This document shows, one piece after another, positions 444 to 20,314 of a stretch of DNA of 64,000 nucleotides. Positions within the stretch are counted from its first letter, which is position 1; every line of letters begins with the position of its first letter. Made by a program: the position numbers and the translations under genes. The notes below the pieces were generated by a model that did no database searches, was not told where the DNA came from, and worked only from the letters and a program-made list of their open reading frames with translations. The DNA is taken from positions 124,001 to 188,000 of the forward strand of contig NZ_FOFS01000002.1 in assembly GCF_900111015.1 (NCBI RefSeq). The letters run 5' to 3'. Origin of the DNA: Solimonas aquatica (GTDB lineage Bacteria; Pseudomonadota; Gammaproteobacteria; Nevskiales; Nevskiaceae).

Positions 444-779
444 ATGGCGTTCGAAAAGCTCTGCAAGATGGATGATCTCTGGGAAGGCGAGATGGAGGCC
501 TTCGAGGTCGGTGATCAGGAAATTCTGGTGGTGTGGCCCACCGACGGCGAGATCGTCGCCTTCCAGGCCGTGTGCCCGCATCAGGACATTCCGCTGGTGG
601 AAGGCAAGTTTGACGGCAAGAGCATCATCTGCCGCGCCCATCAGTGGGCCTTCGACTGCCGCACCGGCGCGGGCATCAACCCGTCCGACTGCCGCCTCGC
701 CAAGTATCCGGTGAAGGTCGAGGGTGAACACCTGATGGTGGACACCGCCGGCGTGCAGCCGCTGTTCGCACACACCTGA
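444..779 (+). CDS. tmoC: Rieske [2Fe-2S] ferredoxin of toluene monooxygenase (TmoC-like)
   Basis: A 111-residue cytoplasmic Rieske protein that carries electrons from the reductase (2262-3293) to the diiron hydroxylase. Both cluster-binding motifs are present: CPH at residues 44-46 and CRAH at 63-66, giving the two Cys and two His ligands. The length equals that of known TmoC-type ferredoxins. The start ATG 444 follows GGGAAG about 10 nt upstream. It lies between the gamma-subunit and effector genes, as in tmo, tou and tbu operons. Rieske ferredoxins distinguish these four-component toluene monooxygenases from phenol hydroxylases and soluble methane monooxygenase, which lack one. Confidence 0.95.
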   Translation: MAFEKLCKMDDLWEGEMEAFEVGDQEILVVWPTDGEIVAFQAVCPHQDIPLVEGKFDGKSIICRAHQWAFDCRTGAGINPSDCRLAKYPVKVEGEHLMVDTAGVQPLFAHT

Positions 780-850
780 TCCGCAGTCGAACGTCACAAG
801 ACCCAAGGCGGGCCCGCAGGGCGCGCCTTCACAAATGCAAGGTGAGCAAT

Positions 851-1159
851 ATGAGTGACATGGACAAGGCGCATCTCAACAACATGGTGGGCCCGATCAT
901 GCGCCAGGGCGCCCTGGCCAGGGCGGTGTTCGAAGCGGCCGAGGTCGACAATCCCGATCGCAAGATTCTGATGGAGGACAAGGTGGCCTATGTCCGCATC
1001 CAGACCGAAGACGAAATGATTCTGCGCCAGGAAACCATCGAAGAGATGCTGGGCAAGCCCTTCAAGCTCAATCAGCTGGAAGTGGACATGGCCTCGTTTG
1101 CCGGCCGCATCGAGACCAAGGCCGATCACGTCCGTTTTTATTTCGCCAAGCACCTCTGA
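851..1159 (+). CDS. tmoD: Toluene monooxygenase effector protein (TmoD/MmoB/DmpM family)
   Basis: This 102-residue protein belongs to the cofactor-less effector family that binds the hydroxylase and tunes substrate access and coupling. Features are the VGPIMRQG segment near the N-terminus, the central DNPDRKILMEDKVAYVRI block and a C-terminal FYFAKHL end. I start it at ATG 851, which has GGTGAG five bases upstream; an in-frame GTG at 842 would add three residues. It is placed 71 nt after tmoC and 28 nt before tmoE, the usual order. An effector is required for efficient turnover in this family, so its presence implies that the system is complete apart from the truncated first gene. Confidence 0.93.
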   Translation: MSDMDKAHLNNMVGPIMRQGALARAVFEAAEVDNPDRKILMEDKVAYVRIQTEDEMILRQETIEEMLGKPFKLNQLEVDMASFAGRIETKADHVRFYFAKHL

Positions 1160-1187
1160 ACAACACGGGGCGCACGAGGAGAAGATC

Positions 1188-2177
1188 ATGAGCAATACCG
1201 AAGTGCTGAAGCCGCTGAAGACCTGGAGCCATCTGGCCTCGCGTCGCCGCAAGCCCAGCGAGTACGAAATCGTTTCAACCAACCTGCACATCAGCACGCG
1301 TCCGGGCGCCGAGCCTTTCGAGCTCGACCCGAACGTGTTCATCAACCGCTGGTACAAGGAAAAGCGCGACGCCAGCCCGCTGAAGCATCCGGACTGGAAT
1401 GCCTTCCGCGATCCGGACGAGCTGATCTACCGCACCTACAACATGATGCAGGACGGTGCGGAAACCTATGTCATGGGGCTGTTCGACCAGTTCAACGAGC
1501 GCGAGCACGACAAGGGCCTGAGCCCGAACTGGGCCGGCACCCTGGCGCGTCTGTACACGCCGGGCCGTTATCTGTTCCACACCCTGCAGATGTGCTCGGC
1601 TTATCTCGCGCAGATGAGCCCGGCCAGCACCATCTCGATCTGCGCCGCGTTCCAGGGCGCCGACTCGCTGCGCTGGCTGAGCCACACCGCGTATCGCGCC
1701 AAGGAGCTGTCGCAGACCTTCCCGGACAAGGGCTTCGGCGCCAACGAGCGCAAGTACTGGGAAGAAGACGCCGCCTGGCAGGGCATGCGCGAGCTGATGG
1801 AGAAGGTGCTCACCGCCTATGACTGGGGCGAGTGCTTCGTGGCCCTGGAGCTGGTGGCCAAGCCGGCCATCGAAGAGGCCGTGCTGCGCAAGCTGGGTGA
1901 GGCCGCGCGCCACAACGGCGACACGCTGCTGGGTCTGGTGATCGATGCCGAACTCGCCGACGGCGTGCGTCATCGCCGCTGGGCTTCGGCGTTGGTGAAG
2001 CTGGCCTGCGATGCGCCGGGCAATGCCGAGGCGATCAAGGGCTGGATCGCGAAGTGGGAGCCGCTGGCCGACCGCGCCATCGACAGCTTCTGCGCCGCGC
2101 TGCCGGACGTCGCCGATGCCGCGGAGTCGGCCAAGCAGGCCACGCGCGCCTTCCGTCGGTCGCTGATCGGCCTGTAA
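1188..2177 (+). CDS. tmoE: Toluene monooxygenase hydroxylase beta subunit (TmoE-like)
   Basis: A 329-residue ferritin-fold subunit close to the usual 320-330 residues of TmoE/TouE/TbuA2. It pairs with the alpha subunit, and family beta subunits lack the diiron ligands. Recognisable family segments include the N-terminal LKPLKTWSHLASRRRKPSEYEIVSTNL, shown here only by its start LKPLKTWSHLA, and the WYKEKRDASPLKHPDWNAFRDP region near residues 60-85. The start at ATG 1188 follows GAGGAGAAG. Two hairpins separate it from the reductase gene, an unusually long gap within this operon. Confidence 0.92.
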   Translation: MSNTEVLKPLKTWSHLASRRRKPSEYEIVSTNLHISTRPGAEPFELDPNVFINRWYKEKRDASPLKHPDWNAFRDPDELIYRTYNMMQDGAETYVMGLFDQFNEREHDKGLSPNWAGTLARLYTPGRYLFHTLQMCSAYLAQMSPASTISICAAFQGADSLRWLSHTAYRAKELSQTFPDKGFGANERKYWEEDAAWQGMRELMEKVLTAYDWGECFVALELVAKPAIEEAVLRKLGEAARHNGDTLLGLVIDAELADGVRHRRWASALVKLACDAPGNAEAIKGWIAKWEPLADRAIDSFCAALPDVADAAESAKQATRAFRRSLIGL

Positions 2178-2201
2178 GGCGCTTTTTGCAGACGCTCGAG
2201 T

Positions 2202-2248
2202 GGCCCGGAACGGTCTAGGTTCCGGGCCCGCGCCGCTTCGAGGCGGCG
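2202..2248 (+). other. Two hairpins between the beta-subunit and reductase genes
   Basis: A perfect 10-bp stem (GGCCCGGAAC / GTTCCGGGCC, 2202-2228, 7-nt loop) is followed by a 6-bp stem (CGCCGC / GCGGCG, 2231-2248). Neither is followed by a T run. They occupy most of the 84-nt gap after tmoE and resemble mRNA-processing or attenuation structures more than terminators. The reductase gene that follows has no obvious ribosome binding site, so the structure may also affect its translation (inference). Confidence 0.55.
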
Positions 2249-2261
2249 TTCACGCAAACAC

Positions 2262-3293
2262 ATGGGCTCTATGAAGCAGTACAACATCGCCATCGAAGGC
2301 CTCGACAACGGCAGCTTCCAGCAGCAGGGCTGCGACACCGTGCTGCGCGCGGCGCTGCGCGCCGGCATCGGCTTTCCCTACGAGTGCAACTCCGGCGGCT
2401 GCGGCAGCTGCAAGTACGAAGTGGTGTCCGGCGAGGTGGAAAACCTCTGGCCGGAAGCGCCGGCCGTCACCGAGCGCGACCGCCGCAAGGGCCGGTTGCT
2501 GGCCTGCCAGTGCCGCGCGACGTCGGATCTGGTGATCCGCATGCGTCCGCAGCCGGAGGCAGTGCCGGTGATTGCGCCGCGGCGCATGCCGGCGCGGCTG
2601 CTGGAAGTGCGCGAGGTCACGCACGATCTCCGCGAGTTCCGCTTCGGCACCGAGACGCCGGCGAGCTTCCTGCCGGGCCAGTACGCGATGTTCGCGCTTC
2701 CCGGCGTGAGCTCGCCGCGCGCGTATTCGATGTCCAACACCGCCAGCGGTGGCCGCGAGTGGCATGTGCAGGTGCGCCGCGTGCCCAATGGCAAGGCCAC
2801 CGAGGTGCTGTTCGAGAAGCTGCGCCCGGGCGATGAGCTGGAGATCGACGGGCCTTACGGCCTGGCCTATCTGCGCGAAGACGCGCCGCGCGACATCGTC
2901 TGCGTGGCCGGCGGCTCGGGTCTGGCGCCGATGGTCTCGATTGCGCGGGGCGCCTCGCAGGCGGGCCTGCTCAAGGACCGTCATCTGCATTTCTTCTACG
3001 GCGCGCGTACCCCGCGCGACGTCTGCGGCGAAAGCTTCCTGCGCGAGCTGCCGGAGTTCGGCGAGCGTATCCACTACCATCCGGTGGTGTCGATGCCGGG
3101 TGAAGGCGAGAACGCCTGGCGCGGGGAAACCGGCTTCGTGCACGAGCTGTTGCGGCGGCGCATGGCCGAGCGCATGAGCGAGTGCGAGTTCTATTTCGCC
3201 GGTCCGCCGCCGATGACCAACGCGCTGCAGGAAATGCTGATGCTCGAACATCGCGTGCCCTTCGCGCAGATTCATTTCGACCGCTTCTTTTAA
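2262..3293 (+). CDS. tmoF: Toluene monooxygenase NADH oxidoreductase (TmoF-like)
   Basis: A 343-residue reductase that takes electrons from NADH through FAD and a plant-type [2Fe-2S] cluster to the Rieske ferredoxin. The N-terminal ferredoxin domain has ECNSGGCGSC with Cys42, 47 and 50, and Cys82 in ACQCR. The FAD domain shows RAYSMSN near residues 152-158 and the NAD domain GGSGLAPM near 215-222. A second ATG at 2271 (MKQYNIAIEG) is equally plausible, and neither start has a convincing ribosome site. It is the last monooxygenase component gene. Confidence 0.92.
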   Translation: MGSMKQYNIAIEGLDNGSFQQQGCDTVLRAALRAGIGFPYECNSGGCGSCKYEVVSGEVENLWPEAPAVTERDRRKGRLLACQCRATSDLVIRMRPQPEAVPVIAPRRMPARLLEVREVTHDLREFRFGTETPASFLPGQYAMFALPGVSSPRAYSMSNTASGGREWHVQVRRVPNGKATEVLFEKLRPGDELEIDGPYGLAYLREDAPRDIVCVAGGSGLAPMVSIARGASQAGLLKDRHLHFFYGARTPRDVCGESFLRELPEFGERIHYHPVVSMPGEGENAWRGETGFVHELLRRRMAERMSECEFYFAGPPPMTNALQEMLMLEHRVPFAQIHFDRFF

Positions 3294-6012: not shown

Positions 6013-7800
6013 ATGAAACAGGAGATGCCGCTCAAGGGTTTGCAACGCGGCACCGGTGAGGCCTACGACCGGCTGCAGCGGGAGGATCTGCTCTCGCGCC
6101 TGCGCTTTGCGCCGGAAGCGGGCCACATCTGGCTCGACGGCAAGCGCATGTTCCTGCTGCACACCGGGGCTTTCGGCACGCTGCGTCAGGAGCTGATCGA
6201 AACGGTTGGCCCGGCCGAGGCGCGCGGCATTCTCACCCGCATGGGCTATCAGTCCGGCGCCCGCGATGCCGAGCTCGCCAAGAAGGTCCGCTCCGATCTC
6301 AGCTACTTCGAACGCTTCTGCGTCGGTCCGCAGCTGCACGCGCTGGAAGGCATCGTGCTGGTGGAGGCGGTGAAGGTGGAGGTCGATGTGGAGCGCGGCC
6401 ATCACTACGGCGAATTCGTCTGGCACGAATCGGTGGAAGACGAGGCGCACATCATGGCCTACGGAATCGGCACCGAGCCGGTGTGCTGGATGCAGATCGG
6501 CTACGCCAGCGGTTATGCCAGCGCCTTCATGGGCCGTTCCATTCTCTATCGCGAGGTGTCCTGCCGCGCCACCGGCGACTCCGCCTGCCGCATCATCGGC
6601 AAGCCGCTGGAGCAGTGGCAGGACGCCGAGGAAGACGTCTCCTATTTCCGCGCGCAGGGTTTCGTCAACCGCACCGTGGTCGACTTCGGCGCAACGCAGT
6701 CGCGCGAAGCGGCCACGCGCAACGAACGCGGTGCCGGCTCGCAGGGCCGGCACCGCGATGCGCGCATGCTGATCGGCGCTTCCGCCGGTTTCAACATCGT
6801 CTGTCACGCCATCAAGCGCGTGGCGCCCACCGACGCACCGGTGCTGATTCTCGGCGAGAGCGGTGTGGGCAAGGAGATGTTTGCCCGCGCCCTGCATGGC
6901 GAAAGCTCGCGCAGCGACAAGCCCTTCATCGCCGTCAACTGCGCGGCCATTCCCGAGCAGCTGATCGAATCGGAACTGTTCGGCGTGGAGAAGGGCGCGT
7001 TCACCGGCGCCGTCAGCAGTCGCCCGGGCCGCTTCGAGCGGGCCAATGGCGGCACGCTGTTTCTCGACGAGCTCGGCTGCCTGAGTCTGCCCGCGCAGAG
7101 CAAGCTGCTGCGCGCGGTGCAGGAAGGCGAGATCGAGCGGGTGGGCGACACCAAGCAGCGTCAGGTGGATGTGCGCATCATCGCCGCCACCAACGAAGAC
7201 CTGCGCGATGCGGTGGAGCGCAAGACCTTCCGCGAAGATCTGTTCTACCGGCTCAACGTCTATCCGGTGCAGATACCGCCGCTGCGCGAACGCACCGAAG
7301 ACATCTATCTGCTGATGGAATACTTCCTGGATCGTCTGACCAAGCGGCATCGCCGCGATGTCTCGGGCTTCACCGATCGCGCGATCGACGCCCTGCTCGC
7401 GCACGACTGGCCCGGCAACGTGCGCGAGCTGGAAAACGTGATCGAGCGTGCGGTGATTCTGGCCAGTGACGGCGGCTCCATCGACGTCTATCACCTGCCC
7501 GAGATCGTGGCGCGCAGCAAGCGTCGCGGCCTGATGAATCCTTCGATATCCGGACAGCTGGTCGATTGTGAGGAACTGCCGCTGCGCGAGTCGGCTGCCA
7601 ACACGGCGGCCATCACCGATCTCTCCGTCCGGGACAATCTGTCTGAGGAGGTGCCGGCGCCGGATCTGATCTTCGCTGCGCTGGAGCGCCATCGCGGCAA
7701 TCTGTCGGCGGCCGCCCGCGAGCTGGGGCTGACGCGCGCGCAGATCGCATACCGCGCGGAGAAGCTCGGCTACGCCGGACTGTTCCGCCGTCGCTCCTGA
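6013..7800 (+). CDS. Sigma-54-dependent activator, XylR/DmpR/TbuT family (copy 1)
   Basis: A 595-residue aromatic-responsive transcription activator. The XylR N-terminal sensory domain (about 20-110) and V4R domain (about 130-195) bind the effector. A linker follows, then an AAA+ domain with Walker A GESGVGKE near 281-288, the sigma-54 contact loop GAFTGA near 330 and Walker B GTLFLDE near 348-354. A Fis-type HTH closes the protein (about 552-595). The start ATG 6013 has GAGAGGAC before it. It lies downstream of the catabolic genes and upstream of a sigma-54 promoter at 8102. A paralogue of identical length lies at 18527-20314. Confidence 0.95.
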   Translation: MKQEMPLKGLQRGTGEAYDRLQREDLLSRLRFAPEAGHIWLDGKRMFLLHTGAFGTLRQELIETVGPAEARGILTRMGYQSGARDAELAKKVRSDLSYFERFCVGPQLHALEGIVLVEAVKVEVDVERGHHYGEFVWHESVEDEAHIMAYGIGTEPVCWMQIGYASGYASAFMGRSILYREVSCRATGDSACRIIGKPLEQWQDAEEDVSYFRAQGFVNRTVVDFGATQSREAATRNERGAGSQGRHRDARMLIGASAGFNIVCHAIKRVAPTDAPVLILGESGVGKEMFARALHGESSRSDKPFIAVNCAAIPEQLIESELFGVEKGAFTGAVSSRPGRFERANGGTLFLDELGCLSLPAQSKLLRAVQEGEIERVGDTKQRQVDVRIIAATNEDLRDAVERKTFREDLFYRLNVYPVQIPPLRERTEDIYLLMEYFLDRLTKRHRRDVSGFTDRAIDALLAHDWPGNVRELENVIERAVILASDGGSIDVYHLPEIVARSKRRGLMNPSISGQLVDCEELPLRESAANTAAITDLSVRDNLSEEVPAPDLIFAALERHRGNLSAAARELGLTRAQIAYRAEKLGYAGLFRRRS

Positions 7801-7827
7801 TCCACTAAACACCAAGGCCTTGTCCGC

Positions 7828-7860
7828 CAGCGGTGGCATGCCATGCGCGTGCGACCGCTG
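7828..7860 (+). terminator. Hairpin after activator copy 1
   Basis: CAGCGGT and ACCGCTG form a 7-bp stem around an inner GGCATGCC palindrome, 28 nt after the activator stop. No T run follows. It may mark the 3' end of the activator message, but the evidence is only the symmetry. Confidence 0.35.
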
Positions 7861-7876
7861 CGTGGCTTGCAGCGCT

Positions 7877-7987
7877 GAAATTTGCGGTGGTGAATGCGTG
7901 CTGTGAAAGGCAGCAGCAGGTTTGACATGAAATTTCGCAACGCAGCAGCGTGAAATTTCTCAAATATTCATCAATGCCAAATTTCAG
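7877..7987 (+). promoter_or_regulatory. Putative upstream activator sites (GAAATTTC repeats)
   Basis: Four copies of an AAATTTC-type motif lie in an AT-rich stretch: GAAATTTGC (7877), GAAATTTCGC (7929), GAAATTTCTC (7952) and CAAATTTCAG (7978). The middle two are flanked by TTTGA (7921) and TCAAA (7960-7964), giving an inverted TTTGA...GAAATTTC arrangement. They lie about 115-230 bp upstream of the -24/-12 promoter, the distance at which XylR/DmpR-family proteins usually bind. That these are the activator sites is inference. Confidence 0.5.
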
Positions 7988-8101
7988 ACACATAAAACTT
8001 TGAGATTTTTCTTGCGAAAAAATGCTGTGCTCAATGTCACAAAAAGATAATAAAGCGATAAAAAACATGAGCCTGTAGAAGTCTCATGGTGCGCTGCACA
8101 G

Positions 8102-8117
8102 TTGGCATGCTTATCGC
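8102..8117 (+). promoter_or_regulatory. Candidate sigma-54 (-24/-12) promoter
   Basis: TTGGCATGCTTATCGC has GG and GC separated by exactly 10 bases, as required, and the -24 half matches TGGCA fully. The -12 half is TCGC instead of TTGC. Transcription would begin near 8128, upstream of the DmpK-like gene. The divergence of the -12 element is compatible with an activator-dependent promoter. Neighbouring sigma-54 activator genes make the assignment credible. Confidence 0.6.
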
Positions 8118-8146
8118 TTTTTACACCCGGAGTCGCCGGAAAAACG

Positions 8147-8377
8147 GTGAACAGATCAAAAAAGGGGAGAGCCATCGAACAGCAAAGGCCAGATGCCGAA
8201 ACGGCAGTGGACGTAGCACGCAAGTTCGTGCGCGTCACAGGTCGGCGTCCGGACGGCTATGTCGAGTTTCAGTTCTCGATTCATCACCAGGAACTTTTTG
8301 TCGAGTTGATTCTGCCTGCCGCTGCGTTTGAAGACTTCTGCAGACGCAACGATGTGACGCTGTTGCAAGCGCACTGA
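8147..8377 (+). CDS. Orphan phenol hydroxylase assembly subunit, DmpK-like
   Basis: A small protein matching the DmpK/phenol hydroxylase P0 family: RKFVRVTGRRPDGYVEF is followed by ELFVELILPAAAFEDFC. In phenol hydroxylase operons dmpK is the first gene after the sigma-54 promoter, and its product helps to activate the apo-hydroxylase. Here it is alone: the genes that follow are transporters, not dmpL-P. I start it at GTG 8147 (76 residues); the frame is open from TTG 8102, but that codon lies in the promoter. AGGGGAGA at 8162-8170 precedes an ATC codon in frame, so the true start is uncertain. Confidence 0.75.
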   Translation: MNRSKKGRAIEQQRPDAETAVDVARKFVRVTGRRPDGYVEFQFSIHHQELFVELILPAAAFEDFCRRNDVTLLQAH

Positions 8378-8447
8378 AAAGCAGAACCGGCTTTACAGGT
8401 TCAAAAAAATCAAGTCGCGGGCTTCTTGTGAGGCCAGGAGCGACGGA

Positions 8448-8687
8448 ATGTGGAGGAGAAGATGTATTCAGCGATCCGCAAAGGGTTGGGGCTGTCGTTC
8501 ACACGGAAGCCCGCGTTGTTATCGTCATCGCCAAGTCCTGCTCTCCAGCAGCAGGCGCCGTCTTCAGTTGGATGTAATGACGGCAGGCAAAGCCTCGCGC
8601 ACGGCAAGCAGTTCCTGCGTGATCTCCAGTCCGCGGCAGTCGGCCGCCGCATTTAAATCAGCACTAGCCAAAGGCGTTCAGCACTAA
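8448..8687 (+). CDS. Unrecognised 79-residue frame coupled to the RND gene
   Basis: ATG 8448 has AGGAG seven bases upstream, and the TAA stop (8685-8687) overlaps the ATG of the RND transporter. The RND gene has no good ribosome site of its own, which suggests translational coupling. The product is rich in Arg, Ser and Cys at its start and resembles no family I know. A competing frame begins at ATG 8462 with GGAGGAG close before it and ends at 8656 (64 residues). One of these may be a leader peptide, or neither may be a functional protein. Confidence 0.35.
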   Translation: MWRRRCIQRSAKGWGCRSHGSPRCYRHRQVLLSSSRRRLQLDVMTAGKASRTASSSCVISSPRQSAAAFKSALAKGVQH

Positions 8688-11170
8688 TGGATACGTTCCG
8701 CTTTCGGATTGCTGCCTGGGTAGTCGGGCACCGCCGCTCTGTCGGCATCTTCTTCATCCTGCTCACGATGTTCTTCGCGGCGGGTCTGCCGCGTCTGGAC
8801 ATCCGCACGATCTTCCAGGATCTGCTGCCGACGGATGATCCCTTCGTACAGGCGTATCACGATCACCCGAATTTCGGCGATCCGCTGACCGTCACCATCA
8901 TGCTCAAGCGCACGGACGGCCAGAAGATCTACAACGCCGACACCTTGCAGAAGATCTGGAAGCTGACGCGTGACGTGGACCTGATTCCGGGCATCGACCA
9001 CGACCGCATCCTCTCGATCACCACGGAAAAGGCCACGTACGCCGAGGCCACCGCCGACGGTATCCAGATGCAGCCGCTGATGGGTAATGAAGTGCCCACG
9101 GATGCCAAGGATCTGGCCGAGCTGGAACGCAAGGTCGAACGCTCGCCCACGGCGCGCACCTATCTGGTGTCGGCGGACCAGACCGCCACGCTGCTGCGCC
9201 TGTCCTTCCGCGAGGATCTGCTGGACTACGGCAAGGTGTTCGCCGCGCTGGGCGATCTGACCCGCGCCGCCAGCGATGACAAGCATATGTTCCGTCTCGT
9301 CGGCCAGCCGATTCTCACCGGCTGGGTGTACAAGCTGCAGAAGCAGACGTACATGATCTTCGGCGTGACCCTGGTGCTGCTGGTCGCGGCCCTGGCCTTC
9401 TACATGCGCAACGTCACCGGCATCGTGGTGCCGGTGGTGTGCAGCGCGGTGGCCGCGGTCTGGGGCTTCGGCATGGTCGGCTGGATCCGCTCGCCCATCG
9501 AGCCGCTGCTGATGGTGGTGCCGCTGCTGCTGGTGGCGCGCTCCTTCTCGCACTGCATCCAGTACACCGAGCGCTATTACGAGATTTACGCGCATGTGCG
9601 CAATCGCGTGAAAGCCAGCGAGATCACCCTGGGCGTGATGATGGCGCCCAGCATCCTGGGCATCATGACCGACGTGATCGCGATCTTCGTGATCGGCGTG
9701 ACGCCGATTCCGGCGATGCGCCGCTTCGCGGTGTTCTGCGGCATGTGGGCGGTGTACCTGATTCCCACCGGTGTGATGCTGATTGCGATTCTGCTGTCGT
9801 ATCTGCCGGCGCCGCGCAACATCGACGCCATCGTCGGCGGCGAGCGCGAACGCGGCATCCACAAGCTGCAGAAGAATGCGCTGCGCGGCATGGCGGCCAT
9901 CACCTACGGCAAGCGGGCCCGCGTCACCACCCTGGTGATGGGCATCGTCACCGCGCTGGCCATCGCCTTTGGCATGCGCATCGAAATCGGCAATCCGGTG
10001 GAGGGCTCCAACCTGCTGTGGCAGAAGTCGGAGTTCAACACTGCCGTGCGCGACATCAATGACCACTTCCCGGGCGTCAACTCCCTGGAAATCATTCTGG
10101 AGTCCAAGGACCCGGGCAGCATGCAGGTGCGCGCGGCGCGGAGCCTGGAGGCCTATCAGCTGTCCAAGTCGATCCAGAAGGAAGCCGAGCGCGGCCCCTT
10201 GCCGGCGCGCGTGACGCGTTCCTTCGCCGACGTGGTGGACGAGGGCAACCGTCTGTATTCCGGTGGTCACCCGGCCTGGCTGTCGCTGGACCCGACCGAC
10301 CGCTCGATCAACGCGGCGGCCACCGCTGTGGCCTTCGGTCAGAACCCGCTGAACTTCGCGGACATGACCGACACGCATTACCAGCATTCCACGGTCTCGC
10401 TGTTCTATCGCGACAACAAGCAGGCGACGGTGGACGGTGCGCTGGAAACTGCGCGCAAGGCGGTGGCGGCGGTGGGCGTGGATCACAAGAACATCCGCAT
10501 CCGCCTGGCCTCGGGCACCATCGCGCTGCAGCAGGCGATGAACAGCGTCGTGGAGCGTTATCACTGGATTCTGGTCGGCTTGTGCTGCGCGGCGATCTTC
10601 CTGATCGCCACCTACGCCTACCGCTCGCCGGTGGCCGCGATCATCCTGCTGATTCCGACCCTGCTGTCGAACTTCTACCTGCTGTCCACCATGCACATGA
10701 TGGGCATCGGTCTGGACATCAACTCGGTGCTGGTGACGGTGCTGGGTGTGGGCGTGGGCATCGACTACGGCATCTATCTGCTGTCACGCATCTGCGAGGA
10801 ATACCACGCGCAGGGCAAGGACTGGGGCGCGGCCATCACCATGGCCATGACCACCACCGGCAAGGCGATCATGTTCACCGCCTCGATCATGCTGGTCGGC
10901 ATCCTGCCCTGGTACTTCCTGTCGGATCTGAAGTTCATGGCCGACATGGGTCTGCTGCTGGCCGCGATCATGCTGATCAACATGGTGCTGGCACTGGTGG
11001 TGCTGCCGCTGCTGGTCTGGCTGGTGAAGCCGAAGTTCGCCACCCGCACCGACCTGATCGTCGGCGAGGGCGTGGACCTGTCGCAGTTCACCGCACATGA
11101 CAACGAATCCCCCCAGCAGGCGCAGGCCGGCGGGAGCGTGGCGGACTCCGCCATGCTGCCGAGCAAGTAA
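8687..11170 (+). CDS. RND-superfamily transporter, MMPL type
   Basis: An 827-residue inner-membrane protein with the RND duplication. It has a TM helix near residues 18-35, a periplasmic loop to about 220, a TM bundle to about 385, another helix near 412-431, a second periplasmic loop to about 620 and a final TM bundle (about 625-790). GVGVGIDYGIYLL near 687-699 is the MMPL-type signature with the Asp-Tyr proton-relay pair. Relatives of this class move lipids and hydrophobic compounds and usually act with periplasmic carriers. The DUF1329, YCF48 and DUF1302 genes follow in the same orientation, so they probably form one trans-envelope system. Confidence 0.92.
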   Translation: MDTFRFRIAAWVVGHRRSVGIFFILLTMFFAAGLPRLDIRTIFQDLLPTDDPFVQAYHDHPNFGDPLTVTIMLKRTDGQKIYNADTLQKIWKLTRDVDLIPGIDHDRILSITTEKATYAEATADGIQMQPLMGNEVPTDAKDLAELERKVERSPTARTYLVSADQTATLLRLSFREDLLDYGKVFAALGDLTRAASDDKHMFRLVGQPILTGWVYKLQKQTYMIFGVTLVLLVAALAFYMRNVTGIVVPVVCSAVAAVWGFGMVGWIRSPIEPLLMVVPLLLVARSFSHCIQYTERYYEIYAHVRNRVKASEITLGVMMAPSILGIMTDVIAIFVIGVTPIPAMRRFAVFCGMWAVYLIPTGVMLIAILLSYLPAPRNIDAIVGGERERGIHKLQKNALRGMAAITYGKRARVTTLVMGIVTALAIAFGMRIEIGNPVEGSNLLWQKSEFNTAVRDINDHFPGVNSLEIILESKDPGSMQVRAARSLEAYQLSKSIQKEAERGPLPARVTRSFADVVDEGNRLYSGGHPAWLSLDPTDRSINAAATAVAFGQNPLNFADMTDTHYQHSTVSLFYRDNKQATVDGALETARKAVAAVGVDHKNIRIRLASGTIALQQAMNSVVERYHWILVGLCCAAIFLIATYAYRSPVAAIILLIPTLLSNFYLLSTMHMMGIGLDINSVLVTVLGVGVGIDYGIYLLSRICEEYHAQGKDWGAAITMAMTTTGKAIMFTASIMLVGILPWYFLSDLKFMADMGLLLAAIMLINMVLALVVLPLLVWLVKPKFATRTDLIVGEGVDLSQFTAHDNESPQQAQAGGSVADSAMLPSK

Positions 11171-11259
11171 GCAGGTGTTGTGCAACAGAATCCCGAACGA
11201 TTCGGAAAAGACGCGTTAACAGTGCGAGGCGCGAAAAGCGCCATCAGGAGGATTGTGAG

Positions 11260-12657
11260 ATGAGAATCAGAAAGTACGATTTCAACTACGGACGCCGCAA
11301 GATGATGGAGTCCGTGGCCTATGGTCTCGGCGCCGGCGTGCTGATGCCGTATGACAAGCTGCTGGCCAAGGAAATCGACGATATCGGCAAGGCCTATCCC
11401 GATGAGCTGCTGTCGGTGGAAGCGCAGTCCAAGGGCAAGGTGAAAGTCGGCGACTACATCACCAAGGACAACGTCGAGCACGTCAAGCACCTGCTCGATC
11501 CGGGCGTCTATGAGCAGATCACCGGCCCGGAAAACCGCAAGATCTACATCAAGGCACCGACCACCAATCCGCGCGACCTGGTCAGCGCCGCCTATTACGA
11601 AGCCACGGTGCAGGACGTCAAGAGCGGCCACGCCGGCAAGTTCGACGCCAACGGCAACGTGGTGGACGAGAACGGCAAGAAGTGGCAGGGCGGCCTGCCC
11701 TTCGTCAATCCGAAGTCGGGCCAGGAAGTCTGGGCCAATATGTGCCTGAACATCGGCCGCGCCGACAACGCCTGCTACGTGATCGAGCAGAAGGACTACG
11801 GCGCCAACGGCAAGCAGGAATACCACTACAACTTCCAGTGGGTGGAGCTCAACAGCACCGCGCGTACCGATCGCAAGGTGTTCAAGGGCATGGAGAACGA
11901 GCTGCGTCGTCAGAGCGTGTTCTTCGCTGCTTCGCCCGACGTGCGTGGCACCTCGTTCCTGAGCATCTGGGACTACGACATGCGCAAGATTCCGGAGCTC
12001 TACGGCTATCTGCCGGAGTTCCGTCGCGTGCGTCAGTTCCCCTCCAACCAGCGCTTCGAGCCCCTGGTTCCGGGCGCGGTGTGGTTCCTCTCCGATCCCT
12101 GGGCCGCCGGCGATCCCTTCCTCACCTGGGGCAACCACAAGATCGTCGAGCGCAAGCCGATGCTCGGCCCCTGGGCTTCGGACTTCTCGCGTCACGATGA
12201 CAACTGGGAACCGCCGCGGCAGAAGGACAACCCGAAGTTCTTCGACATTCCCTACGAGATGTCGCCGGAAGTGATCGTCACCAGCTGCGAACCGATCGGT
12301 TATCCGCGTTCGCCGGTGTCCAAGCGCGTGGCCTACGTCGATGCCCGCAACAGCATGGCGGCCAGCAACATCCGTTACGACCGTCAGGGCAAGCTGTGGT
12401 CGAACTTCGAAATGGCCCACGGCCAGTTCAAGGGCGGCGGCAAGGACGGCAAGCGCCTGATTCTCAGCGCCGACGGCAAGAATCCGGCCTGGTCCTGGAC
12501 CTACGTGCACATCTACGACTTCCAGAACCGCCGCATGTCGCTGTGCAACCACAGCAAGGGCGCCGCGGGTGTCGAGGCACGCTTCCAGGCCGATCCCGAG
12601 TGGCTGTTCAACACCTACTGCACGGCGCAGGCCCTGCAGGCACTCGGCCGCGCTTGA
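11260..12657 (+). CDS. DUF1329 family periplasmic/outer-membrane protein
   Basis: A 465-residue protein recognisable as DUF1329 by length, context and segments such as YHYNFQWVELN and the WAAGDPFLTWGNHK region. The N-terminus has a twin-Arg pair (YGRRKMMESVAYGLGAG), a Tat-like export signal rather than a classical Sec one. The start ATG 11260 has AGGAGG nine bases upstream. The molecular function is unknown; I recall DUF1329 being grouped with LolA/LolB-like lipid carriers, which would suit a shuttle between the RND pump and the DUF1302 protein. That role is inference. Confidence 0.88.
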   Translation: MRIRKYDFNYGRRKMMESVAYGLGAGVLMPYDKLLAKEIDDIGKAYPDELLSVEAQSKGKVKVGDYITKDNVEHVKHLLDPGVYEQITGPENRKIYIKAPTTNPRDLVSAAYYEATVQDVKSGHAGKFDANGNVVDENGKKWQGGLPFVNPKSGQEVWANMCLNIGRADNACYVIEQKDYGANGKQEYHYNFQWVELNSTARTDRKVFKGMENELRRQSVFFAASPDVRGTSFLSIWDYDMRKIPELYGYLPEFRRVRQFPSNQRFEPLVPGAVWFLSDPWAAGDPFLTWGNHKIVERKPMLGPWASDFSRHDDNWEPPRQKDNPKFFDIPYEMSPEVIVTSCEPIGYPRSPVSKRVAYVDARNSMAASNIRYDRQGKLWSNFEMAHGQFKGGGKDGKRLILSADGKNPAWSWTYVHIYDFQNRRMSLCNHSKGAAGVEARFQADPEWLFNTYCTAQALQALGRA

Positions 12658-12743
12658 TCGGCAAACGACTCGTGTAGTCGAGCGGCGGCGGCCATGGGAA
12701 ATGGCCGCCGCTCTTCCAAGGTTTCTTACCGGTGCTGTCAGCC

Positions 12744-13778
12744 ATGAAGACTTTTGCGCGCCTGAAAATCATGAAGCCGCTGGTTCTGTCGGCTCTGCTG
12801 GGCTTTATTTCCTCCGCTTTCGCCGATGTCGGCGGCAGCGAGGCCATCGTGCAGTTCACGCCGCATGACCGGCTCTACGCGGTCGCCTTCAACGGTGATT
12901 TCGGCGAGGCGGTGGGTGAGGGCGGTCTGGTTCTGCAGACCACCGACGGTGGCAAGACCTGGCGCCATGAGGTCAAGGCGCCGACGCAGCTGGCGATGTT
13001 CAGCGTCGCGATCAGCGGCGCGCGATCCATCGCCGTGGGTCAGCAGGGAATGATCCTGGTGCGCGACGGGCGCAAGCCCTGGCGCAGCATCACGCCGATC
13101 ACCGACCGTCGTCTGCTGCGGGTGAGCCTGAACAAGAGCGGGCTTGCCCTGGCGGTCGGCGCCTTCGGCACGGTGCTGAAATCCAGCGATTACGGCGAGA
13201 CCTGGACCGAGCTCAAGCCGGACTGGGTGACGCTTTACAAGACCGAAGAGACCAGCGACTTCGTCGCCGTGCGTGACGAGCCGACCATGTACACCGCCAA
13301 GGTGTTCGAGGACGGCTCCATGCTGCTCGGTGGCGAATACGGTCAGATCAATCGCTCCACCGACGGTGGCGCCACCTGGACGCCGGTGTACAAGGCGCCT
13401 GCCGCCGAGAACGCCACGACGCCGCCGACGCTGTTCGGCATGAACGTGCGGGATGACGGCACCGGCTACGCCTCCGGTCAGGACGGGCTGGTGGTGATGA
13501 CCAGCGACGCCGGCCAGACCTGGACGCGACTGGAGACGGGCACGCAGGCCAGCCTGTTCGATGTCGCCTCCACGCCGGACGGTCATGTGTTCGCGGTGGG
13601 CATGCGCAGCGGTCTGGTGAGCACCGACGCCGGCAAGACCTGGCAGTCGCTGGCTGCACTCGATCTGAGTCTCAACTGGTACAGCGGTCTGGCGCGCGCC
13701 AGCAGCATGCAGGGCGATTCCATCATCGCCGTCGGCCACAGCGGCCGCGTGCTGAGACTTGCCGCGCGCGGTAACTGA
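12744..13778 (+). CDS. YCF48-like beta-propeller protein, secreted
   Basis: A 344-residue protein with about seven BNR/YCF48 blades, visible as repeated TDGGKTW, SDYGETW, TDGGATW, SDAGQTW and TDAGKTW motifs, each followed by a G-x-x-G turn. A hydrophobic signal (KPLVLSALLGFISSAFA) precedes the mature part. I use ATG 12744; GTG 12732 and ATG 12771 are also possible. YCF48 proteins are assembly factors in photosystem II. Non-photosynthetic bacteria often carry one beside RND/DUF1329/DUF1302 genes, where it may chaperone or scaffold the envelope complex (inference). Confidence 0.88.
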   Translation: MKTFARLKIMKPLVLSALLGFISSAFADVGGSEAIVQFTPHDRLYAVAFNGDFGEAVGEGGLVLQTTDGGKTWRHEVKAPTQLAMFSVAISGARSIAVGQQGMILVRDGRKPWRSITPITDRRLLRVSLNKSGLALAVGAFGTVLKSSDYGETWTELKPDWVTLYKTEETSDFVAVRDEPTMYTAKVFEDGSMLLGGEYGQINRSTDGGATWTPVYKAPAAENATTPPTLFGMNVRDDGTGYASGQDGLVVMTSDAGQTWTRLETGTQASLFDVASTPDGHVFAVGMRSGLVSTDAGKTWQSLAALDLSLNWYSGLARASSMQGDSIIAVGHSGRVLRLAARGN

Positions 13779-13831
13779 AAGCAAGGCATTCCATTTAAAC
13801 AGTAACAAAGGGCACAGGGGAGAAGAGCAAT

Positions 13832-15988
13832 ATGCGTTCAGCTCATGCCATACGCCGCGCGATGGTCGCGGGCATGATCACGATGGCGGGTTCCAGCGCC
13901 GCCTGGGGTGATGAGGGAGAGGTCGGAGGTTTCTTCTCTGACCTGTTTGCGCGGACCACGTTCGTGGGCACCGTGCGCAGCGATACCGCGGTGCGCACCA
14001 CGGGTCTGCAGAACTTCTATGACCAGGGCAACATGCCCTATCAGCACACGGCGGTGCCGCGTCAGGCTTATCTGCCGCCTTCGCTGGGCAGCGCGCTGCT
14101 GGGCACACAGGTTCTGCCGGCCGCCACCAACTGGAACATTCCGATTCCCAACATCGGTCTGCACACCAATGACACGGTGCGTCGCGACACCTACATCAAG
14201 AGTGACGACGTCAAGGTCAACTACCAGGAACTGCGCTTCAGCGGTGAAATGAACATGGCGTTCACGGACAACCTGCGCTTCAACGTGCAGGCGCGCGCCG
14301 TGTTCGATCCGGACATCTCCAACCAGTTCGATGCCCGCAGCCTGATCAACACCCAGGGCGGCATTCCCGGCGGCGGCGCGGATCGCTATGCCGATACCGG
14401 CAGGCCGAACTACTTCGAGGCCAGGGGCCGCAACGGTCGCAACCTCAATCCGACCGAGTTCGCCGGCCGCAAGTACATGGTCGACTTCCCGACCGCGCTG
14501 CTGGAGTACAAGCACGACGCCTTCAACCTGCGTCTGGGCATCCAGCAGATTGCCTGGGGTCAGGCGATCTTCTTCCAGACCTTCGACGTGCCCAACGGTC
14601 TGGACTTCCGTCGCCACCTGGTGCTCGATCGCGCCATCGAAGAGTTCTCCGACAAGCGCGTGCCGGCACTGGCCCTGCGCGGCGCCTGGCAGGCGACCGA
14701 CGAGATGCTGATCGACAGCTACATCTCCAAGTTCCAGCCTTCGATCATTCCCAACCCCAACACGCCGTTCAACGTCGCGCCGGCGCAGTTCTACAAGCCG
14801 CTCGACAACTATTTCACCGGCGGCTACAACAACAAGCTCAACTTCGGCATCCGCATGAAGTCGGACTACGGCAACTGGGGCTACTCGGCGATGGCGGCCA
14901 GCCGCTACAACCCGCTGGGCGTGTTCAGCTGGTCCGAGAGCGGCATCAACCGTGGCCTGCATGGCACCAACGCCGACGGCAGCACCTGGGGCAACAGCCT
15001 CGGCACGCTGGTGCAGACGGCCTATGCCGCCAAGGCGCCGGTGGGCGGCACGCTGTGCCCGGTGTACAACCCGACCACCTGCCGCATGTATGACAGCCTG
15101 GGCGAGGCGCTCTCGCACACGCCGCTGACCATCGCGCCGGCCGGCGTGTACAGCAACAAGGAGTGGTTCACCTCCGCCGGCCTGATCCGCCTGGACGCCG
15201 TGAAGATGCTCAACACGGTGATTCAGGAGTATCCGGCGCTGCGTGACGTGTACGCCTCCGAAGTGTCGGGCATCGAAGAGGCGAGCAATCTGCTCAACAC
15301 CTTCTTCGCGGCCTCCGACGGCAGTATCCGCGGCACCATCCAGCGCGACTACTATCGCGAGTCGGTGTTCGGCCTGGGCGGCAGCTACGTGATGGAGACC
15401 GAGGATCCGGGTTCGTTCTGGAACCAGTTCATCATCAACGCCGAAGCGCAGTACACGCCCAACCGTCGCCTCACCGGCACCGATCTGGGCCATGGTGGCG
15501 AGAAGACCAATGAGTACATCCTCACACTGGTCGGCGAGAAGTGGTTCCGCTACACCGAGTCCTTCCCGGCGGCGTACCTGGCCTTCGAGTTCCAGCATCG
15601 CAGCGCCACCGACCTGGTGGGTCTGAACCTGAATGGCTACGGCGGTCTGATGCGCAGCCAGCCGGTGGAAGATCCCATCGGTCTGCAGGGCAATGACTAC
15701 TCGCATCTGAAGGTGGCCAAGGGCATCTCCTCGGCGGACTACCTGGCTTTCGCCGGCTTCCAGCCCTGGCCGAACCGCAAGTACGTGTTCGAGTGGGCGG
15801 TGCTGTGGGATGTGCGCGGTGGTGTGCTGGCGCAGCCGCTGGTCAAGTGGAACCCCGGCCACAACGTCAGCGTCGACTTCTTCTACAACTACCTGAACGG
15901 CCATCTGTACGGCAACGAAGGCAACAACCTGATCCGCGTCATCGATTGGGCTGATGAGTTCAACATCCGTATCGGCTATCAGTTCTGA
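13832..15988 (+). CDS. DUF1302 family outer-membrane protein
   Basis: A 718-residue protein with a signal peptide ending near AWGDEG and the aromatic- and Asn-rich alternating pattern of a large beta-barrel. The C-terminus ends in FNIRIGYQF, with the terminal Phe typical of barrels folded by BAM. Family segments include the IQQIAWGQAIFFQTFDV region near residues 233-250. The start ATG 13832 is preceded by GGGGAGAAG. It is the last gene before a strong terminator, so it probably ends the RND-DUF1329-YCF48-DUF1302 transcript. The substrate is unknown; the family recurs in clusters for hydrophobic compounds such as steroids. Confidence 0.88.
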   Translation: MRSAHAIRRAMVAGMITMAGSSAAWGDEGEVGGFFSDLFARTTFVGTVRSDTAVRTTGLQNFYDQGNMPYQHTAVPRQAYLPPSLGSALLGTQVLPAATNWNIPIPNIGLHTNDTVRRDTYIKSDDVKVNYQELRFSGEMNMAFTDNLRFNVQARAVFDPDISNQFDARSLINTQGGIPGGGADRYADTGRPNYFEARGRNGRNLNPTEFAGRKYMVDFPTALLEYKHDAFNLRLGIQQIAWGQAIFFQTFDVPNGLDFRRHLVLDRAIEEFSDKRVPALALRGAWQATDEMLIDSYISKFQPSIIPNPNTPFNVAPAQFYKPLDNYFTGGYNNKLNFGIRMKSDYGNWGYSAMAASRYNPLGVFSWSESGINRGLHGTNADGSTWGNSLGTLVQTAYAAKAPVGGTLCPVYNPTTCRMYDSLGEALSHTPLTIAPAGVYSNKEWFTSAGLIRLDAVKMLNTVIQEYPALRDVYASEVSGIEEASNLLNTFFAASDGSIRGTIQRDYYRESVFGLGGSYVMETEDPGSFWNQFIINAEAQYTPNRRLTGTDLGHGGEKTNEYILTLVGEKWFRYTESFPAAYLAFEFQHRSATDLVGLNLNGYGGLMRSQPVEDPIGLQGNDYSHLKVAKGISSADYLAFAGFQPWPNRKYVFEWAVLWDVRGGVLAQPLVKWNPGHNVSVDFFYNYLNGHLYGNEGNNLIRVIDWADEFNIRIGYQF

Positions 15989-16076
15989 AGAACCGGAGCC
16001 GCTGCGCCTGCGGGCGCAGCGGCCCCCCAGGAACTGCCAGCCCAGCGCTATTACTCCCTCAGCTGGCTGGCATGTC

Positions 16077-17433: not shown

Positions 17434-17527
17434 GGCGCTGAACGCGGGCGGGCGGCTGCAGACCGGCCTTGCAGGTGTCGCGATGTTTGATTGATTGGAG
17501 AGGCGCTGATCATCAAGGAGCATCACC

Positions 17528-18526: not shown

Positions 18527-20314
18527 TCACGAGCGCCGCCGGAACAGGTCCGCCAGACCGAGCTTGTTGGCGCGATATGCCAGCTGCGCACGGGTGATGC
18601 CCAGCTCGTGCGCGGCGGCCGAGAGATTGCCGCGATGCCGCTCGATGGCCATCCGGATCGCGTCCGACTGCTGCTGCGTGTCCAGCCAGGCCGAGTCATC
18701 GGCACTCTTGTGCAGCGGCTCGTCTTCCGGCTCCGCAGGCACGTGCGCCGCCGGCTCCGGGGTCTCGGGCGTGTGCGTCGTGGCGCAGGCCTTGGCCGCG
18801 CGCGCCGGCATTTTCTGCGTGTGCAGCTCAGGCAGGTGACAGGCGTCCACCGGGCTGCCGTCCTGCGCCAGAATCACCGCACGCTCGATGACGTTTTCCA
18901 GCTCGCGGACATTGCCCGGCCAGCTGTGCGAGAGCAGCAGATCGATGGCGCGGTCGGTGAAGCCGGGAACGTTGCGTCGATGACGCAGGCACATGCGCTC
19001 CAGGAAATAACTCATCAGCAGCGAGACGTCTTCCTGGCGCTCGCGCAGCGGCGGAATCTGCACCGGGTAGACATTGAGGCGGTAGTAGAGATCCTCGCGG
19101 AAGCGCTTCTGCGCCACGGCTGCGCGCAGATCTTCATTGGTGGCGGCGATGATGCGCACATCCACCATGCGCAGGCGGCTGTCGCCCACGCGTTCGATCT
19201 CGCCTTCCTGCACGGCGCGCAGCAGCTTGCTCTGCGCCGGCAGGCTCAGGCAGCCCAGCTCGTCCAGGAACAGCGTGCCGCCATTGGCACGTTCGAAGCG
19301 CCCGGGCCGGCTGCTGATGGCGCCGGTGAAGGCGCCCTTCTCCACGCCGAACAGCTCGGCTTCGATCAGCTGCTCGGGAATCGCCGCGCAGTTGACCGCC
19401 ACGAAAGGCTTGTCGGCGCGCGAGCTTTCGCCGTGCAGGGCGCGGGCGAACATCTCCTTGCCCACGCCGCTTTCGCCCAGAATCAGCACCGGCGCATCGG
19501 TCGGTGCCACGCGCTTGATGGTGTGGCAGACAATGTTGAAACCCGGCGAGGCGCCCACCAGCGCGCGTGACTGCGTGCGGCGGCTGCCGGTGGAGGTATC
19601 AATTTTCAAGGCGGTCTGCGCCACCACGTTCTTCTTGCTGCCGTAGTCCACCACCGGCTTGGCGACGAAGGACTGTGCGCGCAGGAACTGCAGATCCTCC
19701 TCGGCGTCCGCCCATTCCTCGGCCGGCTTGCCGACGATGCGGCAGGCGGCAAAGCCCTGTGCCTTGCATTCGACTTCGCGATACAGGATGGCGCGACCCA
19801 TGAAGGCACTGGCATAGCCGCAGGCGTAGCCGATCTGCATCCAGCACACCGCTTCCGGCCCCACGCCGTAAGCGGCGACATGGGCTTCGGCTTCGATGGA
19901 TTCGCGCCACAGGAATTCGCCGTAGTGATGGCCGCGCTCCACGTCGATCTCGACGCGCACCGGCTCCACCGTGACGATGCCTTCCAGCGCATGCAGCTGC
20001 GGGCCCACCGCATAGCGCTCGAAATAAGTCATGTCGGCGCGGATTTTCTTGGCCAGCTCGGCGTCGCGGCTGCCGGACAGATAACCCATGCGGGTGAAGA
20101 TGCCGCGCGCCGAGGCCAGGCCGATGGTCTCGATGATCTCCTGCCGCAGTGTCCCGAAGGCGTCGGTATGCAGCAGGAACATGCGCTTGGTATCGAGCCA
20201 GATATGGCCCGACTCCGGCGCAAACCGCAGTCTCGACAGCAGGTCTTCCCGCTCCAGCTTGTGAAACGCTTCCCCTTGCGGAGCTCCGCTGACTGCGGAG
20301 AATGAACTTTTCAT
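18527..20314 (-). CDS. Sigma-54-dependent activator, XylR/DmpR/TbuT family (copy 2)
   Basis: A 595-residue paralogue of the protein at 6013-7800 with the same architecture: XylR_N, V4R, AAA+ (GESGVGKE, GAFTGA, GTLFLDELG) and a Fis-type HTH ending RANKLGLADLFRRRS. I start it at ATG 20314 because AGGAGGGAGAAG stands directly before it; the upstream in-frame extension to 20449 has no such site. Differences from copy 1 lie mainly in the first 15 residues and in the linker before the HTH. It converges on the envelope module, so either activator could drive the promoter at 8102. Confidence 0.94.
   Translation of the reverse strand: MKSSFSAVSGAPQGEAFHKLEREDLLSRLRFAPESGHIWLDTKRMFLLHTDAFGTLRQEIIETIGLASARGIFTRMGYLSGSRDAELAKKIRADMTYFERYAVGPQLHALEGIVTVEPVRVEIDVERGHHYGEFLWRESIEAEAHVAAYGVGPEAVCWMQIGYACGYASAFMGRAILYREVECKAQGFAACRIVGKPAEEWADAEEDLQFLRAQSFVAKPVVDYGSKKNVVAQTALKIDTSTGSRRTQSRALVGASPGFNIVCHTIKRVAPTDAPVLILGESGVGKEMFARALHGESSRADKPFVAVNCAAIPEQLIEAELFGVEKGAFTGAISSRPGRFERANGGTLFLDELGCLSLPAQSKLLRAVQEGEIERVGDSRLRMVDVRIIAATNEDLRAAVAQKRFREDLYYRLNVYPVQIPPLRERQEDVSLLMSYFLERMCLRHRRNVPGFTDRAIDLLLSHSWPGNVRELENVIERAVILAQDGSPVDACHLPELHTQKMPARAAKACATTHTPETPEPAAHVPAEPEDEPLHKSADDSAWLDTQQQSDAIRMAIERHRGNLSAAAHELGITRAQLAYRANKLGLADLFRRRS

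Follow-up and report, generated by a model that had tools for sequence, protein, structure and literature searches.

Several gene sets have been described that combine an RND-type transporter with DUF1329, YCF48-like and DUF1302 proteins. AmeABCD of Castellaniella defragrans comprises these four families, with DUF1302, DUF1329, a YCF48/COG4447 protein and an HAE3-type RND in one hydrocarbon-catabolism cassette, and has been read as an exporter (PMC6394551). In P. putida, PP_0765/PP_0766/PP_2018/PP_2019 encode a DUF1302 protein, a DUF1329 protein, a periplasmic protein and an RND-type transporter, which are functionally linked, are required for growth on Tween 20 and have predicted contacts (PMC10866462). 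The same families appear in operons of the predicted AphR/AphS/AphT regulons, where the regulator predicted for one of the genomes is of XylR/DmpR type (PMC6449761), and a "nanopod" cluster of Ca. Anaerobenzenivorax with porin-like, DUF1329, YCF48 and MMPL proteins has been proposed to transport benzene (PMC13101534). DUF1302 and DUF1329 proteins have also been reported in nanopods, with their genes adjoining within a phenanthrene cluster (PMC3110197), and a sigma-54 activator, DUF1302 and DUF1329 have been placed near a phenol hydroxylase (PMC7012976). Because the four-gene kind and its tie to aromatics are already in print, as the available portions of these reports show (PMC6394551, PMC10866462, PMC6449761, PMC13101534), the set described below is not a new system.

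The locus lies in a window of 64,000 nucleotides of Solimonas aquatica DNA, by which we mean the whole stretch that was analysed. The relevant features are as follows.

444..3293, + strand: end of a T4MO-type monooxygenase operon (Rieske ferredoxin, effector-like subunit, hydroxylase beta, reductase)
6013..7800, + strand: XylR/DmpR-type V4R sigma-54 activator (XylR_N 1.9e-37, V4R 2.7e-14, Sigma54_activat 2.6e-71)
7877..7987, no strand assigned: candidate enhancer, four GAAATTT/AAATTTC sites at 7877, 7929, 7952 and 7979
8102..8118, + strand: sigma-54 promoter element TTGGCATGCTTATCGCT, pattern score 0.94
8147..8377, + strand: dmpK-like phenol hydroxylase leader, 76 aa with an assumed GTG start (PF06099, E 7.8e-24)
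8687..11170, + strand: RND/MMPL permease, 827 aa (Pfam MMPL 4.5e-21, 75.6 bits)
11260..12657, + strand: DUF1329 of class P1, beside the RND (152.6 bits; YGRRKMM at residues 10-16)
12732..13778, + strand: YCF48-like beta-propeller, 348 aa (Pfam PSII_BNR 4.6e-18, 65.9 bits)
13832..15988, + strand: DUF1302 outer-membrane barrel, 718 aa (71.9 bits; C-terminal YQF)
15998..16023, + strand: hairpin after DUF1302, 11-bp stem, no T run
18527..20182, - strand: second XylR/DmpR-type V4R activator, 70% identical to the activator at 6013..7800

The four consecutive open reading frames proposed by a sequence-only reading of this DNA each scored above the curated Pfam cut-off of their family. As in an AmeABCD-type set, the DUF1302, DUF1329, YCF48 and RND genes adjoin on one strand, here with gaps of 53-89 bp, and a hydrocarbon catabolic locus is linked to them, as seen from the adjoining T4MO-type operon and the co-occurrence across the clade described below. 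The YCF48 gene has a possible alternative start at an ATG at 12744. AmeABCD differs in that its gene order is reversed, with DUF1302 first, one DUF1329 is described there whereas the window lineage has two classes, and its substrates are monoterpenes rather than aromatics (PMC6394551). The P. putida genes form two separate pairs, PP_0765/PP_0766 and PP_2018/PP_2019, and relate to Tween 20 (PMC10866462). The AphR/AphS/AphT operons belong to Betaproteobacteria and rest on regulatory prediction only, with no dmpK leader, two-carrier or Tat feature mentioned in the available part of that report (PMC6449761), and the benzene degrader Ca. Anaerobenzenivorax is a strict anaerobe (PMC13101534). In the text available from the open-licence PMC papers examined, we met no mention of a clade bound to T4MO, of two classes of carrier, of the Tat motif or of the dmpK promoter.

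Two open frames near the set are without a Pfam match: a 64-aa frame between dmpK and the RND gene (8462-8653, +) and a 401-aa proline/alanine-rich protein 3' of DUF1302 (16228-17433, +). A 343-aa protein, also unmatched, occupies the position equivalent to the latter in Solimonas soli (L097:14750-15781).

Relatives of the set were surveyed with seven paralogous RNDs as queries and one genome per species, which yielded 217 relatives, of which the best 80 were kept; locus composition was counted on the 43 of these in which the sequence flanking the RND extends for 9 kb or more in both directions. All four families were present together in 29 of the 43 loci, so the co-occurrence in other genomes on which the sequence-only reading had been staked does exist. 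DUF1329 proteins occupy two position classes, P1 before YCF48 and P2 after DUF1302: P1, YCF48, DUF1302 and P2 were all found in 16 loci, P2 was missing from 12 and P1 from one, five were partial, and nine, all of one clade, contained an RND alone. In a FastTree phylogeny of 104 DUF1329 proteins, a branch with a support of 100 splits all 47 P1 members from 29 of the 32 P2 members, and the three exceptions in the P2 position are distant cassettes of the window genome (L013, L014 and L017). The set had been described as having four parts; the four families do stand together, but the full set in this lineage has five, owing to the second DUF1329. The window cassette holds P1, while the P2 of the genome (C16:96408-97793) lies in the same island, approximately 35 kb upstream, with 87% identity to the P2 within the S. 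soli cassette. In genomes G045 and G068, no P2 occurs in the 20 kb around the cassette, and P2-like genes of 76-79% identity are found elsewhere in the genome.

In L025 of the window genome the P2-type DUF1329 (16410-17881, -) runs over two reading frames in an otherwise complete cassette and is probably a broken gene. Methylibium petroleiphilum plasmid RPME01 (L028) carries two oppositely oriented cassettes that are separated by extra DUF1329 genes; an alkane 1-monooxygenase and a LuxR-type regulator are close by. A separate clade contains 25 RNDs of the same subfamily with no partner gene nearby (L045, L057, L063, L066, L067, L073, L099, L103, L109 and 16 more); the nine loci whose flanks both reach 9 kb or more are all partnerless, the other 16 lie near contig ends, and no neighbour is common to more than seven of the 25. 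The RNDs of two records titled Klebsiella pneumoniae (L069 and L077, both MAGs) group with gammaproteobacterial MAGs from a lake and other samples, and these titles look wrong. Fusions among RND, DUF1329, YCF48, DUF1302, SDIMO alpha and V4R proteins, sought as proof of contact, were absent from the collected loci.

We then consider the catabolic surroundings. The T4MO-type genes in the window were identified by a Rieske match (6.7e-20), PF02332 for 1188-2177 (4.5e-70) and Fer2/FAD/NAD domains for 2271-3293, with a weak match for the effector-like subunit; the gene for the alpha subunit (L020:8591, 1.3e-74) is located immediately ahead of the window, and a glutathione transferase, an alcohol dehydrogenase and an HsaD/BphD-like hydrolase follow 3' of the operon. 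The region C16:74-140 kb, which further contains another T4MO alpha subunit, two sets of phenol hydroxylase genes and ring-cleavage-type families, is an aromatic-degradation island. Within it, L019 and L020 (C16:94-124 kb) account for the second T4MO alpha and both phenol hydroxylase sets, and they also encode two additional V4R activators.

The link to the monooxygenase is shared across the clade of the window RND, which comprises S. soli L097, L031, L032 and L036 (SH-aLRT 100 in a quick tree of 99 RNDs). All four of these RNDs are beside T4MO-type genes, as is that of L062, nearby in the tree; SDIMO matches also occur in L047, which is elsewhere in the tree, and in L039 one such match is approximately 12 kb away. 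Eight of the 58 family genomes encode a complete RND of the window type, at 75% identity or more, and all eight have a T4MO alpha subunit (at least 70% identity) on the same contig, 0.7-22 kb from the RND and colinear or divergent with it. As T4MO alpha at this identity occurs in 10 of the 58 genomes, with 57-59% only in two more, the co-occurrence has a Fisher p of 2.3e-8, or 2.0e-7 if G067, which lacks T4MO and has only part of an RND at the end of a contig, is counted; by genus it is 3/3 versus 2/9 (p 0.045). In G047 a distance of 3.7 kb separates the T4MO from an RND of 63% identity; in G046 the T4MO adjoins a partial DUF1329 gene at the end of a contig. In G061 (L129) and G015 (L133), phenol hydroxylase genes and a V4R activator adjoin the cassette. 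The tie of the trans-envelope set to aromatic catabolism, which had been read from the window, is thus supported by the joint occurrence of the four families and by the co-occurrence of the clade with the T4MO-type monooxygenase. The RND clade of the window travels with T4MO-type genes, whereas the sigma-54 control appears to be a local feature.

The two activators that flank the set were confirmed as XylR/DmpR-type proteins, each with XylR_N, V4R, Sigma54_activat and HTH_8 domains, and the one at 6013..7800 is directly upstream of the sigma-54 promoter. That promoter, also postulated earlier, is real by pattern: TTGGCATGCTTATCGCT has the top score in the window under hand-assigned scoring weights. 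Its score was matched in two of 500 shuffles of 7801-8686 and in none of 300 shuffles of the 900 bases 5' of the RND. The core pattern TTGGCATGNNTATCGC was drawn from two sites, that of the window and the one that precedes a phenol hydroxylase operon in L019 (C16:110846). Across the 4.43 Mb genome it matches exactly nowhere else and with one mismatch in four places, against none for the reversed control. The first gene behind the promoter is not the RND but the dmpK-like leader, which is absent from the sequence-only reading. Its core domain is whole (profile 2-56 of 57), with a C-terminal tail shorter than that of the L019 dmpK. dmpK normally opens phenol hydroxylase operons, as is the case in L030.

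The GAAATTT/AAATTTC sites, approximately 115-225 bp 5' of the promoter, form a candidate enhancer and lie at roughly the distance from the promoter at which XylR-type activators bind (PMC6449761). None of 1000 shuffles of 7801-8101 equalled their six overlapping matches, a figure to be read with the motif having been picked after sight of the sequence. An XylR-type enhancer was considered as a shared regulator site and rejected, as none (TTGATC..GATCAA or the 16-base form) precedes the window promoter in a search for at least 9 of 12 arm bases, with a consensus drawn in part from PMC6449761. A perfect XylR-type site, TTGATCTGGATCAA, is present at L019:16757, at the sister phenol hydroxylase promoter. 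At the other end of the set, where a strong terminator had been claimed, the hairpin is strong (-37.8 kcal/mol for 81 nt, z -3.1, two of 200 shuffles as good), but it has no T run and a terminator scan found none.

Conservation of the sigma-54 promoter was examined in the 900 bases before the RND of eight relatives (L097, L031, L032, L036, L062, L129, L133 and L130). None has a site comparable to that of the window; the best, in L097, is marginal (10 of 300 shuffles as good), and a convincing site is found in the window alone. The proposed sigma-54 coupling is therefore not conserved over the 900 bases examined in these relatives. Because a comparable site is missing before their RNDs, the wiring looks like local promoter capture, most simply explained if the genes for the transporter were brought behind a phenol hydroxylase promoter and its dmpK leader. 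An independent sigma-54 coupling is present in the dmp cluster of P. veronii T1 plasmid NZ_CP142043.1, where a V4R activator is flanked by two sigma-54 sites with high scores: the first precedes dmpKLMNOP, and the second is 297 bp before YCF48-RND-DUF1302-DUF1329. Its RND is approximately 30% identical to that of the window, its DUF1329 start is without the Tat motif, and its RND and DUF1302 are each in two open frames.

The protein models bear on what the set may do. The hydropathy profile of the RND has 20 peaks, merged by eye to 12 transmembrane segments, with two large periplasmic loops, in keeping with its MMPL match. MmpL3 has an Asp-Tyr proton relay in both TM4 and TM10; the window RND has SHxxQ in TM4 and DY in TM10 alone, with H289 and D693 each kept in 99 of 100 aligned RNDs, including that of the window, and its TM4 thus indicates a relay that is not MmpL3-like. 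Folds were compared with VIA-align. The P1 DUF1329 was modelled with a LolA fold, as a LolA-like carrier, and DUF1302 as an OprD/Occ-like barrel, whose sequence gave DUF1302 only in Pfam and no PDB sequence match to E 1. The YCF48 propeller has five Asp-box repeats and, by eye, a Sec-type signal. The carrier and channel folds, together with a proton-driven permease, support the passage of hydrophobic molecules between the two membranes, and the set is likely a proton-driven trans-envelope carrier for hydrophobic aromatics. FadL-family TodX/TbuX provide outer-membrane entry of aromatics in monooxygenase clusters, a comparable place beside monooxygenase genes filled by another family than DUF1302, which models like OprD/Occ; no FadL was among the 50 structural matches listed for DUF1302. 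The suggestion that the set stands in place of a FadL-type porin fits, because the whole genome has one FadL-type gene (PF03349), on another contig, against 15 DUF1302 matches.

In the mechanism we propose, DUF1302 would serve as the outer-membrane channel, and in the periplasm the oily molecule would be bound by the two LolA-like DUF1329 proteins, of which P2 would work close to the barrel and P1 close to the RND; the P1 fold and the two classes were observed, and the sides are suggested by gene order. The YCF48 propeller may act as a scaffold that holds the carriers together, and the RND would hand the molecule between carrier and inner membrane, presumably powered by protons through the single TM10 Asp-Tyr pair. 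In the window genome, this set now sits behind a phenol-type sigma-54 promoter with its dmpK leader. By analogy with NPC1, an RND-like protein that receives cholesterol from the soluble carrier NPC2, we would prefer inward delivery to efflux. Our tentative view, with chances close to but short of even, is that an AmeABCD-like system carries hydrophobic aromatics inward for the adjoining toluene/phenol pathway.

The best structural matches of the DUF1302 barrel include OpdK with vanillate, a BenF-like porin and AlgE. OpdK and the BenF-like porin are uptake channels, which agrees with inward transport, whereas AlgE is an exporter and fits an efflux or tolerance pump, in which the RND would take toluene or phenol from the inner membrane and P1 and P2 would carry it out via DUF1302, the pump being induced with the pathway since the substrate and its intermediates are toxic. 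RND, MmpL and LolA systems usually run outward, which also counts for efflux. The AmeABCD data point the same way (PMC6394551), as does the regulon study, in which a possible role against toxic aromatics and solvent stress is given for the four genes (PMC6449761). The evidence on direction thus sets tolerance data, on limonene, against growth data: the P. putida relatives are required on Tween 20 (PMC10866462), and a Delftia DUF1329 mutant is impaired on phenanthrene, as recounted in PMC13101534. The acetate rescue of C. defragrans at low limonene is also compatible with failed uptake, and separate sets beside different catabolic genes suit uptake at least equally. On balance we regard efflux as possible but somewhat doubtful. 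Whether such RND/DUF1329/DUF1302 sets import or export bears on bioremediation and solvent tolerance, and the present locus is a tractable case, with one clade tied to one monooxygenase and a candidate inducible promoter.

The best NCBIfam match of the RND is HAE3 TIGR00921 (117.9 bits against a cut-off of 351.9), and it is weakly similar to HpnN (1e-11), MmpL3 (8.9e-11) and BstA (1.3e-6), all below cut-offs. HpnN moves hopanoids and BstA sterols; this similarity and the LolA-like carriers raise the idea of envelope homeostasis, in which the set would move membrane lipids rather than substrate to repair or stiffen the outer membrane on solvents. The window genome encodes seven RNDs of the close type, and the paralogues have different neighbours: a Rieske dioxygenase alpha subunit (L018), a hydantoinase and acyl-CoA dehydrogenase (L021), beta-oxidation genes (L022), a LuxR/MalT regulator with a gamma-glutamyltranspeptidase and alcohol dehydrogenase (L023), an AMP-ligase and hydrolase (L024), and a LuxR/MalT regulator with an epoxide hydrolase (L025). 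These differing neighbours and the co-travel with one monooxygenase indicate substrate specificity and argue against lipid homeostasis, to which we give little credence.

The N-termini of the DUF1329 carriers share a further feature. Window-type members start with a pattern close to Y[SG]RRx[FLM][LM], a conserved twin-arginine motif in which R12 is kept in 43 and R13 in all of 44 aligned members. By regular expression, a Tat motif was found in 43 of 47 P1, 38 of 41 P2-side and five of 16 other sequences, and the Methylibium DUF1329s have it. In six of the seven P1/P2 misses the expression found no core anchor, and one is without RR; nine of the 11 other misses are without the anchor, and eight of those 16 sequences are distant DUF1329s of the window genome. 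Curated Tat models gave no match on eight distant DUF1329s of this genome. TIGR01409 (E up to 1) matched 11 of the 44 members (best E 0.0012) but not the window protein, and Pfam TAT_signal matched two; with curated models of this type, the P2 of the window genome reached E 0.22, below cut-off, and the S. soli P2 gave nothing. RR is absent at the start of the P. veronii DUF1329, and the start of the EbN1 protein shows it without the remaining motif. TatC is encoded in the window genome. Judged by these N-termini, both carriers seem to be exported already folded, as Tat export implies folding in the cytoplasm; none of the open-licence PMC papers searched names DUF1329 together with twin-arginine.

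A more specific version of the transport model, which we consider unlikely, is that the DUF1329 pair folds in the cytoplasm, leaves via Tat, possibly loaded with ligand, and then forms an ordered relay, P1 at an RND with a half-rewired proton relay and P2 at the barrel, the whole being duplicated once per catabolic pathway. If true, this Tat-exported two-carrier relay would be a LolA/LolB-like relay for hydrocarbons instead of lipoproteins. The two carriers, the Tat motif and the TM4/TM10 residues offer handles on direction and mechanism.

The window genome has 24 DUF1329 matches, some of them pieces of one gene. An unusual copy number was considered and dismissed: because sampled family genomes carry from 3 to at least 26 matches, the number is a habit of the lineage. 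Of the two long DUF1329 frames scanned with Pfam, L015 is not a fusion, and L011:3822-6371 (-), in the window's own genome, encodes an 850-aa protein that joins TPR repeats to a DUF1329 domain.
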